This document shows positions 52,957 through 61,354 of a stretch of DNA of 64,000 nt, piece by piece. Under the pieces are notes generated by a model. The model ran no database searches. It saw only the letters and a program-made list of their open reading frames with translations, and had not been told where the DNA came from. Origin of the DNA: Solidesulfovibrio carbinoliphilus subsp. oakridgensis (GTDB lineage: Bacteria; Desulfobacterota; Desulfovibrionia; Desulfovibrionales; Desulfovibrionaceae); assembly GCF_000177215.2 (NCBI RefSeq), contig NZ_CM001368.1, forward strand, positions 2,480,001-2,544,000, written 5' to 3'. A program made the translations under genes and the position numbers. Every line of letters begins with the position of its first letter. Position 1 is the first letter of the stretch.

Positions 52957-54270
52957 TTATCTCATGTGTCTCTGGCGATAGGCCTTTTCGTCATGGGCAA
53001 AGCCGCCGGGCACTTCATCTTCCTTGAAGAAGATGTAGGGGTTGGAGCGCGGCTCCACCACGTGCTGCGGCACGGCCTTGATGTTGGTGACCTCGAGCAG
53101 CTTCTGGAAGGACAGCCGCTTCATGGTCTCGCCCACGCGCTCGCGGTTCTTGCCTTCTTCCATCCACCAGTCCCAAATGTTCTCGATGACTTCCTTGATC
53201 TCGTCGTAGGGCTTCTCGACGACCACGAAGGGCACGAGCAGCGAGGACATCTGGGCGCCGTCGAGGATCGGGGCCTTGGCGCCGAGCAGGATCGAAGCGC
53301 CGGTTTCGGCGCCGATCTTCACGGCCGCGGGCATGGTGTTGATGCAGTGCATGCAGCGGGTGCAGTTGGCATTGTCGATGGAGAGCTTGGCGCCGTCATA
53401 GGACATGCAGCCGGTGGGGCAGCGGTCCACGACTTCCTTAACGATGTCGAACTTGCCCCAGTCACGGCCGGCATGGGAGCCGCCGCCAGCCTTGAACTCG
53501 CCGGCGACATAGCCCTTGACGCGGTCCTGGTCGATGCGGATGTCGTCTTTCCAGGTGCCGATGACCGAGAAGTCCGAACGGGCGATGGAGGCCACGCAGC
53601 CGTTGGGGCAGCCGTCGAACTTGAACTTGAACTTGTAGGGGAAGGCCGGGCGGTGCAGCTCGTCCTGGTAGTCGTTGGTCAGGGTGTGGCACAGATCCTG
53701 GGTGTCGTAGCAGGCGAATTCGCAGCGCGACTTGCCCAGGCAGTCGGCCGGGGTGCGCAGGTTGCCGCCCGAGCCGCCGAGGTCGGTGTTCATCTTGTGG
53801 GTGACGTCGTGGAAGATTTCTTCCAGCTGCGGGGTGGTGGTGCCCAAAAGCACGATGTCGCCCGTGGAGCCGTGCATGTTGGTCAGGCCGGAACCGCGCA
53901 GGTCCCAGATGTCCATGATGCCGCGCAGGTAGTCGGAAGTGTAGTACTTGCCGGAGGGCTGGGCCAGGCGGACCGTGTGGAAGTGGGCAACGCCGGGGAA
54001 CATTTCGGGCTGGTCGCAGTACCGGCCGATGACGCCGCCGCCGTAACCGAAAACGCCGACGATGCCGCCGTGCTTCCAGTGGGTCTCCTTGTCCTTGAAG
54101 GAGAGTTCCAGCACGCCGAGCAGGTCGTCAGGACAGTCAACCGGCGTCTGGTAGTCCAGGCCGGCCGCATTGGTGGCCCGGTGCTCGGCTTCCTGTTTGA
54201 TGTCGGACACGAAGCTGGGCCACGGCCCGCTTTCGAGCTGGTCCAACAAGGGGGTTTGGTGTTTCGCCAT
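52957..54270 (-). CDS. dsrA: Dissimilatory sulfite reductase alpha subunit
   Basis: A 437-residue subunit paired with DsrB. The N-terminus [20 protein letters not shown] is typical. It carries [17 protein letters not shown] with [15 protein letters not shown] for the siroheme-coupled cluster and [18 protein letters not shown] for the ferredoxin-type cluster. It leads dsrAB-dsrD-cbiA. A leader of about 167 bases separates it from the mapped promoter; GGAGG lies just before the ATG. Confidence 0.97.
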
Positions 54271-58034: not shown

Positions 58035-58052
58035 TTGTGAAAAAAGTGACAA
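58035..58052 (+). promoter_or_regulatory. Rex- or CRP/FNR-like operator upstream of the hydrogen-sensor operon
   Basis: TTGTGAAAAAAGTGACAA matches TTGTGAA-N4-TTCACAA at 12 of 14 positions. It also resembles TGTGA-N6-TCACA sites of the CRP/FNR family (HcpR, CooA). It lies 18 bases before the ferredoxin start codon. Confidence 0.45.
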
Positions 58053-58070
58053 TACGAGGCCCGCAGCCGT

Positions 58071-58313
58071 ATGAAACATGACATCGTCATCTGCATGGGC
58101 AGTTCGTGTTTCGCCAGGGGCAACAAGAAGCACCTGCTTTTGATCGAGCAGTACCTGGCCGACCACGGCCTGACGGACACGGTGGTCCTCTCCGGCAGCC
58201 GGTGCGAGGACCAGTGCACCAGCGGCCCCAACATCCGCATCGACGGGCAGCTCTACGGCGACATCAACACCGAACGCCTGATGGAACTCTTAAGCCGCCA
58301 CCTCTCGGCCTAG
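58071..58313 (+). CDS. Thioredoxin-like [2Fe-2S] ferredoxin (HydC-like)
   Basis: An 80-residue protein with the thioredoxin-like [2Fe-2S] fold found in NuoE/HydC. The four cysteine ligands are CMGSSC (C8, C13) and CEDQC (C45, C49). It is a free-standing ferredoxin of the kind seen beside sensory [FeFe]-hydrogenases, and probably carries electrons for the neighbouring hydrogenase-like protein. GAGG precedes the ATG. Confidence 0.85.
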   Translation: MKHDIVICMGSSCFARGNKKHLLLIEQYLADHGLTDTVVLSGSRCEDQCTSGPNIRIDGQLYGDINTERLMELLSRHLSA

Positions 58314-58424
58314 CCCCGGTCGGCCGGCCTTTTCCCCCACGTCCCTTCCCCCTTGCCTTTGCAGCCCATGAAGACGACAATGGAATTCGAAGGGTCCCGC
58401 ACAGGAACCAGCAAGGGAGGCGGC

Positions 58425-60176
58425 ATGCCCAAGCACTATCCGATCTACACCATCGAAACCGAGTGCCAGGACTGCTACCGCTGCCTGCGCCAGTGTCCGG
58501 TCAAGGCCATCCAGGTGGAAGGCGGCCGGGCCACGGTGGTGCCCGAACTTTGCATCGCCTGCGGCCAGTGCGTGGCCGCCTGCCCGTCCCACGCCAAGCA
58601 GGTGCGAAGCGACATGTTCGGCGTTTTCAAGCTCCTGCGCGGAAGCCGGCCCACCTACGTCTCCCTGGCCCCGTCCTGGGTGACGGAGTTTCCCGACATC
58701 TCGCCCCAGGCCATGATCGCGGCCCTGCGCAAGCTCGGCTTTTCCGGGGTGTCGGAAACGGCCCTCGGGGCCCAGGAAGTGTCCGCGGCCGTGGCCCAGA
58801 CCCTGTGCCAGGGGGGGCCCCGGCTCCTGCTCTCCACGGCCTGCCCGGCGGCCGTGGATTTCATCCGGGGCTACATGCCGGAGCTCGTGCCCAACCTGAC
58901 GCCGCTTTTTTCCCCGCTGCTCTCCCACTGCCGGATGCTGCGCCGGGCCTACGGTCCGCAGATCGGGGTGGTCTTTTTCGGGCCGTGCGTGGCCAAAAAG
59001 ACCGAGGCCGACAACCACCCCGGGCTCCTCGACGCGGCCATGACCTATACCGACCTGCGGGCCATGCTGCGCGAGGACGGCATCAACCCGGCCTCGCTCG
59101 TGCCCGGGCCCGCCGACGTCTTCATGCCCCAGCCGGCCAGGGACGGGGCCCTCTATCCCATCGAGGGCGGCATGTCCGACACCGTGAAGGCCTATGCCGG
59201 CAACGCCGAGGTCTGCTTCACCACCCTTTCGGGCATCGCCACCATCGAGGCCGCCTTGCAGGGCATCCAGAACCACGTCCTGCCCAGGCCCGTTTTCGTG
59301 GAGATGCTCGCCTGCGTCGGCGGCTGCGTCCGGGGGCCGTGCGTATCGAGCAACCGGCCGCGCCTGCTCGACCAGCTCGACGTCTTCAACCGGGCGGCCA
59401 AGCCCGTGCCCGACATGCCGATCCGGCCGGCCCTGGTGGCCATAAGCGAACGCAAAAACCCCTCCCCGGTCGATATCCCGGTCTACAGCGAGGACCAGTA
59501 CGTGAAGGTCCTGCGCCTGATCGGCAAATTCGGGCCGGAAGACGAGATCAACTGCGGCGGCTGCGGCCACGAATCCTGCCGGGGCCTGGCCCGGGCCATG
59601 CTCGAGGGCATGGCCGAGCCGTCGATGTGCGTCCATTTCCTGCGCAAGCGGGCCACCCGAAAGGCCAACACGCTCCTTCGCTGCATTCCGGCCGGGGTGG
59701 TCATCGCCGACGCCAAGCTCCACATCATCGAGTGCAACGAGCACTTCGCCCGGCTGTTTGGCGAGGATACCCTCATGGCCTACGAGGCCAGTCCGGGCAT
59801 GGAGGGGGCGACGCTTGAAAAGATCGTGCCCTTTATCGGCCTCTTTCGCCGGGCCCTCGAAACCGAGACCGACATCCACCGCGACGCCCTGCGCCAGGAC
59901 GACCGGGTCTTTAGCGTCACCATCTTCACCATCGAGCCGCGAAACGTCATCGGCGGGGTCATCTTCGACGTGACCGGTTCGGAGCTCCGGCGCGACGAGA
60001 TCGCCCAGCGGGCCCGGGAGATCATCCGCAAAAACCTGGAGACCGTGCAGGAGATCGCCTGCCGCCTGGGCGAGAACATGGCGGACACGGAAATCCTGCT
60101 GCGGTCCCTGGCCGAGGGCTTTTCCAGCGGGGCCCGGACCATTGCCGAAAAGGACCTGCGGGGGCGGCGCCCATGA
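58425..60176 (+). CDS. hydS: Sensory [FeFe]-hydrogenase-like protein (group C, HydS) with PAS
   Basis: A 583-residue multi-domain protein. Residues 14-56 carry two [4Fe-4S] clusters (CQDCYRCLRQCP; CIACGQCVAACP). The hydrogenase core has the three H-cluster motifs in group C form: STACPA (A139-C140, where catalytic enzymes have CC), FFGPCVAKKTE (C188) and MLACVGGC (C297, C301). An Fe-S domain with CGGCGHESC (about 376) and a PAS domain (about 415-530) follow. Loss of the proton-relay cysteine and the PAS domain suggest H2 sensing rather than turnover. ATG 58425 has AGGGAGG upstream. The stop overlaps the phosphatase start. Confidence 0.85.
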   Translation: MPKHYPIYTIETECQDCYRCLRQCPVKAIQVEGGRATVVPELCIACGQCVAACPSHAKQVRSDMFGVFKLLRGSRPTYVSLAPSWVTEFPDISPQAMIAALRKLGFSGVSETALGAQEVSAAVAQTLCQGGPRLLLSTACPAAVDFIRGYMPELVPNLTPLFSPLLSHCRMLRRAYGPQIGVVFFGPCVAKKTEADNHPGLLDAAMTYTDLRAMLREDGINPASLVPGPADVFMPQPARDGALYPIEGGMSDTVKAYAGNAEVCFTTLSGIATIEAALQGIQNHVLPRPVFVEMLACVGGCVRGPCVSSNRPRLLDQLDVFNRAAKPVPDMPIRPALVAISERKNPSPVDIPVYSEDQYVKVLRLIGKFGPEDEINCGGCGHESCRGLARAMLEGMAEPSMCVHFLRKRATRKANTLLRCIPAGVVIADAKLHIIECNEHFARLFGEDTLMAYEASPGMEGATLEKIVPFIGLFRRALETETDIHRDALRQDDRVFSVTIFTIEPRNVIGGVIFDVTGSELRRDEIAQRAREIIRKNLETVQEIACRLGENMADTEILLRSLAEGFSSGARTIAEKDLRGRRP

Positions 60177-61354
60177 CCGAGGACGTCTTTGTCGAGGTGG
60201 AGGCGGCCCAGCGCAACCGGTACGGCGAGGACATCTGCGGCGACGCCTTCAAGACCCTGCGCCTGGCCGACGAGGGGCGGATCATCGCCGTCCTGTCCGA
60301 CGGCCTGGGGCACGGGGTCAAGGCCAGCATCCTGTCGCTCATGACCGCCACCATGGCGCTCAAGTACACGGCCAACGACACGGACATCGTGCGGGCGGCC
60401 GAGGTGATCATGGACGCCCTGCCCGTGTGCCAGGTCCGAAAGATCAGCTACGCCACCTTCACCGTGGCCGACATCCAGGCCGACGGCGTGGCCCGGGTCA
60501 TCGAGATGGACAATCCGCCCGTGACCCTGGTGCGCGAGGGCCGGGCCGTGGAGCTCGAGTTCGAGGAGGTCGCCTCCCCGCGCTACAACGACCGGGTGAT
60601 CCGGGTCTATGACCTGAAGCTGCGGCCGGGCGACCGGCTGATCATGACCTCCGACGGCATCACCCAGGCCGGGCTCGGGTCCGAGCGGATGCGGCTTGGC
60701 TGGCGGATCAAGGGGTGCCGGGAGTTCACCCTGGAGGAGGTGGCCCGCGACCCGGGGATCTCGGCCCGGTCCCTGTCGCAAAAGATCCTCGGCCAGGCCC
60801 TGCGCCAGGAGCCGTTTTTGCGGGCCTACGACGACATGACCGCGGCGGTCATCTACCTGCGCCGGCCGCGCCGGGCCATCATCCTGACCGGACCGCCCTA
60901 TGCCGCCGGCCGGGACCGGGAATTCGCCGAGGCCCTGGCCGATTTCGACGGCCGCAAGGTGGTGTGCGGCGGCACCACGGCCAACATCGTGGCCCGGGAG
61001 CTGGGCAAAACCATCCGCGACTGCCTGCGCGGCGGAGGGGGCGGCGGCGACATCCCGCCGGCGGCCGAGATGGACGGCGTGGATCTCGTGACCGAGGGCA
61101 TCCTGACGCTGACGCGCACGGCCCAGCTCCTGGAGAGGGACGAGACCCCGCGCGAAAAAAATCCCGCGGCCCAACTCTACGAGATCCTGGTCGAGAGCGA
61201 TTCCATCGAGTTCGTGGTCGGGGCCCGCATCAACGAAGCCCACCAGGACCCCAACCTGCCCATCGACCTGGAAATCCGGCGCAACATCATAAAGCGCATC
61301 TGCCAGGTGCTCGAGGGAAAATACCTCAAGGAAACCAAGGTGAGTTTTTTCTAA
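60173..61354 (+). CDS. SpoIIE-type PP2C serine phosphatase of the hydrogen-sensor operon
   Basis: A 393-residue protein. The N-terminal two thirds are a SpoIIE/PP2C phosphatase with metal-binding aspartates in VLSDGLGHGVKASIL, MTSDGITQAGLG and AYDDMTAAVIYL. The last 150 residues (RRAIILTGPPYAAGRDREFA to LKETKVSFF) form a separate domain of unknown role containing VCGGTTANIVARELG. The start overlaps the hydS stop (ATGA), so the two are co-translated. It is the likely output of the sensor, acting on a phosphoserine target not in the window. Confidence 0.83.
   Translation: MTEDVFVEVEAAQRNRYGEDICGDAFKTLRLADEGRIIAVLSDGLGHGVKASILSLMTATMALKYTANDTDIVRAAEVIMDALPVCQVRKISYATFTVADIQADGVARVIEMDNPPVTLVREGRAVELEFEEVASPRYNDRVIRVYDLKLRPGDRLIMTSDGITQAGLGSERMRLGWRIKGCREFTLEEVARDPGISARSLSQKILGQALRQEPFLRAYDDMTAAVIYLRRPRRAIILTGPPYAAGRDREFAEALADFDGRKVVCGGTTANIVARELGKTIRDCLRGGGGGGDIPPAAEMDGVDLVTEGILTLTRTAQLLERDETPREKNPAAQLYEILVESDSIEFVVGARINEAHQDPNLPIDLEIRRNIIKRICQVLEGKYLKETKVSFF

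Follow-up and report, generated by a model that had tools for sequence, protein, structure and literature searches.

Gene content of the locus

The 64,000-nucleotide stretch of the Solidesulfovibrio carbinoliphilus subsp. oakridgensis genome analysed here (positions 2,480,001 to 2,544,000 of contig NZ_CM001368.1; hereafter, the window) contains, according to its open reading frames, three consecutive plus-strand genes encoding a small ferredoxin (58071-58313), a hydrogenase-like protein, HydS (58425-60176), and a phosphatase (60173-61354). By its domains and its phosphatase linkage, this trio is a member of the published HydDB [FeFe] group C3. Modules of this type have been described before; the additions described here are a conserved tail at the end of HydS, a C-terminal domain of the phosphatase, and an exchangeable sensor head. 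We consider it probable that the three genes form a group C3 signalling module, in which the head senses H2 or redox state, the PAS domain and tail relay the signal, and the separate phosphatase acts.

The first gene encodes a thioredoxin-like [2Fe-2S] ferredoxin of 80 amino acids (Pfam PF01257, 2Fe-2S_thioredx, 30.1 bits, cut-off 24.8), whose cysteines C8, C13, C45 and C49 were kept in all 52 aligned sequences, the window's included. HydS, a group C [FeFe] hydrogenase of 583 amino acids with a PAS domain, matched Fer4, Fe_hyd_lg_C, FeS and PAS_8, each above the curated cut-off, and comprises: a 2x[4Fe-4S] ferredoxin part with eight cysteines (Fer4; residues 9-57; 58449-58595); the H-domain (residues 76-305; 58650-59339; Fe_hyd_lg_C, 142.4 bits, cut-off 22.1) with the H-cluster ligands C140, C188, C297 and C301; a C-terminal iron-sulphur (Fe-S) motif, Cx2Cx4Cx16C (FeS, PF04060; residues 375-403; 59547-59633); the PAS domain (residues about 411-522, ends chosen on the alignment; 59655-59990; PAS_8, 27.7 bits, cut-off 21.8); and the tail (residues 523-575; 59991-60149), delimited by alignment and predicted to contact the phosphatase from its presence in non-hydrogenase partners and its co-occurrence with the phosphatase domain. 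The HydS start was taken at 58425, which GGGAGG precedes; a longer frame begins at 58353. The phosphatase (393 amino acids) consists of a SpoIIE/PP2C domain (residues 1-228; 60173-60856; Pfam SpoIIE, 60.1 bits, cut-off 25) followed by a domain predicted from its modelled structure to be Rossmann-like (residues about 229-393; 60857-61351).

An earlier reading of the sequence alone (the original prediction) had assigned these families, claimed co-translation of HydS and the phosphatase, and listed the four H-cluster cysteines with an alanine beside C140. The Pfam matches, the overlap of the phosphatase ATG with the HydS stop codon (ATGA, 60173-60176) and the residues themselves, including Ala139, bear this out. 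It had overlooked the Cx2Cx4Cx16C motif upstream of the PAS domain (C377, C380, C385, C402) and the conserved tail behind it. The host is probably a sulfate reducer; its genome (4.22 Mb, three contigs) encodes three [FeFe] hydrogenase domains (Pfam PF02906): HydS and two elsewhere.

Conservation and chemistry of the HydS head

Two alignments were examined: one of 75 HydS sequences, the window's included, and one of 43 full HydS proteins, including those of the window, Ruminococcus albus and Monoglobus. C140 was kept in all 74 rows of the first alignment with a residue at this position, and C188, C297 and C301 in 75 of 75; the eight ferredoxin cysteines were kept in 74 of 74 rows with residues, and the four of the C-terminal Fe-S motif in 75 of 75. 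All 16 cysteines (eight ferredoxin, four H-cluster, four C-terminal Fe-S) were present in 43/43 full proteins. Position 139, the proton-relay position, was Ala in 72 and Thr in 2 of the 74 rows; among the full proteins it was Ala (32), Cys (7), Ser (2), His (1) or Val (1). Judged from these alignments, HydS heads hold on to the H-cluster ligands and tolerate different relay residues.

Among the residues named at the relay position of sensory hydrogenases, Ala is the most frequent (about 43%; PMC10055695); the alanine to which the original prediction drew attention is present, and because of this frequency it is no special feature. Thermotoga maritima HydS (TmHydS), with Ala at this position, still turns over, far below group A enzymes (PMC10055695), so that the proposal that high hydrogenase activity would refute a sensory function is too simple.

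Class membership and known systems

HydDB group C3 is described as 'Phosphatase-linked (putative)', and its members 'may sense H2 and regulate processes via serine/threonine phosphatases' (PMC5037454). The window HydS has the group C features, with four H-cluster cysteines in Fe_hyd_lg_C and the Cx2Cx4Cx16C motif followed by PAS, as well as that of C3, a SpoIIE-type Ser/Thr phosphatase gene overlapping its own. The C-terminal Fe-S motif is named for groups C and D (PMC8163306, PMC13104023). HydS scored 186.8 bits with the group B monomeric model TIGR04105, below the curated cut-off of 450 bits, and 83.9 bits with the group A model TIGR02512, below the cut-off of 405.95 bits, and carries Ala139 instead of the relay Cys. 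The locus shares with HydDB C3 the group C hydrogenase domain, the PAS domain and the adjoining phosphatase gene; it has no adjacent catalytic hydrogenase, whereas at least 42 of 80 relatives' loci, seen with flanks of unequal length, include a second [FeFe] head.

The hydS locus of Ruminococcus albus 7 (pRUMAL01, NC_014824.1) has the same order, with a [2Fe-2S] ferredoxin, HydS, the tail and a SpoIIE phosphatase with the C-terminal domain, the latter protein being 32% identical over residues 15-393 of the window phosphatase. It differs in having two ferredoxins in a row, Cys at the relay position, and adjoining rex, adhE, APH/RIO-like kinase and hydrogenase-like genes. The R. albus hydS gene cluster was 111-fold down in co-culture compared to pure culture, and the phosphatase subunit was proposed as a modifier of downstream regulators (PMC6776011). 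The APH/RIO-type kinase gene lies between the adhE and hydS genes (L173, 6019-6768) and is a candidate for an opposing kinase. The sensor-to-phosphatase reading of the original prediction agrees with the hypotheses published for HydDB C3 (PMC5037454) and for R. albus HydS (PMC6776011).

From published descriptions rather than sequence, the Thermoanaerobacterium hfsABCD operon is also alike, HfsB being a hydrogenase with PAS and HfsC a serine phosphatase homologue; it differs in containing HfsD, a catalytic hydrogenase (PMC11837493). Deletion of hfsA or hfsB raised adhE transcripts and ethanol, and deletion of hfsC or hfsD did not (PMC5707799), a pattern that might reflect restraint of the phosphatase by the sensor. 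TmHydS resembles the window protein as a group C enzyme with PAS and Ala at the relay position (A131), and has Ser and Gly at two Met positions around the diiron site (PMC8163306). The phosphatase shares the PP2C fold and the catalytic aspartates with RsbU, RsbP and SpoIIE; unlike these, it has its sensor on a separate protein and carries an additional Rossmann-like domain at its C-terminal end. At the positions of the TmHydS Ser and Gly, the window HydS presumably has Leu295 and Gly186. In the available parts of the open-licence literature, including PMC10055695, PMC10407848, PMC6163223, PMC11406978 and PMC8924675, neither the tail nor the C-terminal phosphatase domain nor the head exchange is described.

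Conservation of the trio

A scan of the genome collection gave 287 relatives of the phosphatase, of which the best 80 loci were kept. The seven closest (81-86% identical) are from Desulfovibrio or Solidesulfovibrio records. A complete HydS (head, Fe-S motif, PAS and tail) lies directly upstream of the phosphatase in 73 of these best 80 loci, and the small ferredoxin precedes it in 69 of the 73; it was not found in L019, and the other three are cut by a contig edge. The remaining seven comprise a split HydS (L078), three loci with no partner directly upstream (L031, L033, L034) and three partial or cut ones (L044, L045, L069). By these gene orders, the trio is conserved far beyond chance. In several of the 80 loci the module is followed by another small ferredoxin and by a [FeFe] hydrogenase of the monomeric type (in L121, 8764-10251, TIGR04105 scored 518.8 bits).

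Long frames over the phosphatase (up to 1022 amino acids) were considered as HydS-phosphatase gene fusions, and this was rejected: in the subset inspected, wherever its parts could be placed, HydS terminates in a different frame that overlaps, and the long frames are therefore read as open frames in GC-rich DNA.

The tail and the exchange of sensor heads

Six surveys were made with the C-terminal domain of the phosphatase, covering 395 genomes of its own phylum and 247, 246, 247, 185 and 195 genomes of five others, those of Alkalispirochaeta, Planctomycetota, Acidobacteriales, Synergistaceae and Myxococcales (centre loci L070, L057, L080, L018 and L060, respectively); the view of Bacillota consisted of three plasmid-collection records. 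The surveys gave 106 phosphatase loci: 92 with HydS upstream, one with HydS divergent, five at contig ends or on fragments with no visible partner (L224, L228, L259, L267, L269), and eight with a partner lacking the hydrogenase head. This census counts the window and the five centre genomes, which were selected as module carriers and all have HydS; minus them, HydS is found in 86 of 100. For most of the HydS calls the basis is the Fe-S motif and tail seen in short stretches; full checks cover 41 of the 92.

Each of the eight head-less partners retains the tail, the small ferredoxin and, at least by alignment, the PAS region, so the sensor head is separable from the output part. Four of them (L104-L107, the same as L116-L119), from one family and three genera of the window's own phylum, have the Pfam architecture Cache-HAMP-receiver-PAS-tail (4/4); their PAS match is near or below the Pfam cut-offs, and above them in two of the four. 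CoA-enzyme activase (DUF2229) genes lie near two of these Cache-type membrane sensors (L118, L119). Three others, in the phylum of Alkalispirochaeta, are proteins of 173-186 amino acids with only PAS and tail (L166-L168, the same as L196-L198), and a further PAS-tail partner lies at a contig end (L234/L274). The PAS-only module of genome G410 is surrounded by genes for carbon monoxide dehydrogenase (CODH), acetyl-CoA synthase (ACS) and CdhD, and that of G446 is followed by ACS and CdhD genes; the G468 contig is too short to tell. From its gene context, the PAS-tail module beside CODH/ACS genes is a possible sensor of the Wood-Ljungdahl or CO state.

Three further loci do not count as head-less: the frame in L225/L278, head-less by profile, is a divergent HydS with the H-cluster cysteines kept; HydS is split over two frames in L078; and the HydS of L244 lies divergently in a wider stretch, L275. 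In this Synergistota-phylum genome (L275, 3105-6544) HydS is oriented divergently to the ferredoxin and phosphatase genes and does not lie between them, by rearrangement or as an assembly effect.

The head-less tails align with those of HydS around Q-x-x-A-x-x-L-G-E. In the same 395 genomes, a tail-only profile matched 20 of the 20 with the phosphatase domain and one of the 375 others, and this single extra match was weak (E 5e-4, a frame of 83 amino acids). Ten of these 20 genomes had contributed sequences to the profile, and the other 10 (10/10) were found although they had not. Within this sample of the own phylum, the phosphatase is accompanied by the tail in 20/20 cases and by HydS in 16/20.

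In a tree of 109 phosphatases (SH-aLRT support only, some long branches), the Cache-linked group and the group of three spirochaete-phylum PAS-only modules each had a support of 100, and both were placed among HydS-linked phosphatases. Three changes between HydS and head-less partners were needed, also without the four rows of unseen partner. Eight of the nine rows across the midpoint root are HydS-linked, the partner of the ninth being unseen. The simplest reading of this midpoint-rooted tree would be that the phosphatase was at first linked to HydS and that the head was lost or replaced later.

The phosphatase and its C-terminal domain

Five aspartates (D24, D43, D161, D220, D221) were invariant in 46/46 phosphatases; we take these to be the PP2C metal-binding site. 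The model of the whole protein (mean predicted local distance difference test score, pLDDT, 88.5) matched solved structures of SpoIIE/RsbU-type phosphatases in Foldseek, the best being 3pu9 (E 1.1e-14, about 230 alignment columns).

The original prediction had pointed to an unassigned extra domain behind the phosphatase. The domain indeed belongs to no Pfam family: there was no match at cut-off in the window protein, and any one family matched at most 3 of 46 members (best E 0.013). It is not a peculiarity of this protein, being a standing part of the phosphatase family: it occurs once in its own genome, and all 20 matches in its phylum are phosphatases of the same family. A sequence-profile search of the PDB gave weak matches only (best E 0.23), the domain model had no Foldseek match at E 0.001 or better, and a profile search of viral contigs confirmed no relative. 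Modelled alone (mean pLDDT 85.4), the domain has alternating strands and helices; the best VIA-align 2 match, which points towards the Rossmann-like domain of molybdopterin oxidoreductases, was 6s6y_F, a chain of the FhcABCD complex (Z 9.3, root-mean-square deviation 3.1, 114 residues; 9 of 999 chains at Z 8 or above), and the next matches were to formate dehydrogenase/formylmethanofuran dehydrogenase complexes and to complex I. The domain is thus predicted to be Rossmann-like, of no clear family. Its conserved motifs (TGPP, CGGTT, DLVTEG and G-x-x-INEAHQDP) lie at or just past predicted strand ends, the last loop being modelled at low confidence. This is where Rossmann-like folds bind ligands, and we infer from the model that the domain may bind one.

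Search for an output target

The search for an anti-sigma-antagonist or kinase target suggested in the original prediction found none among eight window neighbours, nor among eight representatives of the neighbours of the 80 loci, which were clustered without the use of names. The idea of a conserved target gene beside the module was rejected, since these eight representatives include no kinase, anti-sigma or STAS protein: they are NuoF/HydB-like (21 loci), AdhE-like (16), an ABC transporter (8), rubrerythrin, prolyl-tRNA synthetase, cation efflux, and two without Pfam match. The NuoF/HydB-like and AdhE-like neighbours would fit a role in the control of fermentation and hydrogenases in those organisms.

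The upstream region

The imperfect inverted repeat TTGTGAAAAAAGTGACAA lies at 58035-58052 (plus strand), 18 bases upstream of the first gene, and is a possible operator. The site named in the original prediction therefore exists; its attribution to Rex or a CRP/FNR-like regulator is weak, the repeat being half-conserved and its match at chance level. In seven genus sequences, including the window, the left half TTGTGAAAAAAG was invariant (7/7) and the right half variable; with up to two mismatches, the site pattern matched the window once, compared to 0.62 matches expected by chance. The genome has four copies of the pattern TTGTGAN6TNACAA, the window site being one, and two of the four precede [FeFe] hydrogenase gene sets. 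Another copy, the perfect palindrome TTGTGATTATTTTCACAA, lies outside the window (G000:C1:2959309-2959326; L206, 9310-9327) upstream of an HndA-like gene, which is followed by NuoF-like and [FeFe] hydrogenase genes, and is a candidate Rex/HcpR operator. Judging from these patterns, a regulator common to the HydS operon and the hndA set is possible.

Proposed mechanism and alternative explanations

In the mechanism that we propose, HydS would react with H2, or with the redox state set by H2, at a slow H-cluster; the change would travel past the C-terminal Fe-S motif to the PAS domain; and PAS and the conserved tail would control how active the separate SpoIIE/PP2C phosphatase is, a task comparable to that done in RsbU-like phosphatases by a fused linker or an activator protein. 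The phosphatase would dephosphorylate a Ser/Thr target encoded elsewhere, and the Rossmann-like domain probably provides a second input by binding either the target or some small ligand.

Several observations weigh against this mechanism. The eight window neighbours tested include no recognisable target. Only 8 of the 101 loci with a visible partner have a head-less one, and four phosphatases with the C-terminal domain have no direct upstream partner (L031, L033, L034 and L175, in the last of which the frames upstream of the phosphatase resemble CoA-transferase subunits by eye). In a group D enzyme, H2 did not reduce the C-terminal cluster, which speaks against a simple electron relay (PMC13104023). 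Over-expression of hfsD alone gave a high-ethanol state in Thermoanaerobacterium lacking hfsABCD (PMC11837493), and part of the hfsB phenotype may therefore bypass the phosphatase.

The nature of the signal and the manner of control could also be different. The module might sense the cellular redox state, through ferredoxin or NAD(P)H and the [2Fe-2S]/[4Fe-4S] proteins, instead of H2, the H-cluster being a slow electron sink or valve. The small ferredoxin is retained in all eight modules that lost the head, and two of these lie amid CODH/ACS genes, which favours this reading; however, the four H-cluster ligands are kept in 43/43 heads despite a variable relay residue, which points to a retained H2-binding site, and we regard this alternative as unlikely. 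That HydS simply disposes of electrons as an ordinary, slow hydrogenase, and that the phosphatase is no more than co-transcribed with it, is very improbable: the H-cluster ligands are intact and TmHydS turns over with Ala at the same position (PMC10055695), but the PAS domain and tail are well conserved, and tail and phosphatase co-occur and stay together where the hydrogenase is absent. Control by Rex or a CRP/FNR-like protein at 58035-58052, with this site and not the hydrogenase as the redox input, would agree with the perfect palindrome before the HndA-like gene and the TTGTGAN6TNACAA copies before two [FeFe] hydrogenase gene sets; given the variable right half, the chance-level match in the window and a sigma-70 scan that gave no promoter-like site, it appears improbable.

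SpoIIE/RsbU relatives dephosphorylate STAS-domain anti-anti-sigma factors, and the phosphatase could accordingly belong to a classical partner-switching circuit, which is conceivable although we lean against it. The genome has 33 HATPase_c_2 matches, 15 over the cut-off, and the best three are RsbW-sized (199-280 amino acids); yet no such gene was among the eight window neighbours or the eight cluster representatives (STAS genes were not searched for), and in R. albus an APH/RIO-type kinase gene adjoins the module.

Beyond the H2- or redox-sensing module favoured here, it is possible, and suggested tentatively, that the ferredoxin, PAS-tail unit and phosphatase with its Rossmann-like domain form a general output cassette for low-potential redox enzymes, with HydS as the commonest head and with CODH/ACS clusters and Cache-receiver sensors also served. 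The tail would be a transferable plug docking on the phosphatase and the Rossmann-like domain a ligand sensor, so that two signals would be integrated. If this is true, one phosphatase family reads H2, the carbon monoxide or Wood-Ljungdahl state, and external cues. In the parts of the literature available, the sensory role of group C [FeFe] hydrogenases is still called 'putative'; the tail, the phosphatase C-terminal domain and the natural exchanges of heads make signal transfer directly testable.

Neighbouring genes in the window

The eight neighbour frames of the trio correspond to a sulfite reductase, CxxCxxCC, DUF2325, L-PSP endoribonuclease, TPR, flavodoxin and GGDEF proteins, and one frame without assignment. 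The sulfite-reductase-type gene (52957-54270, minus strand; Pfam NIR_SIR) appears, by eye, to encode the alpha subunit of dissimilatory sulfite reductase.

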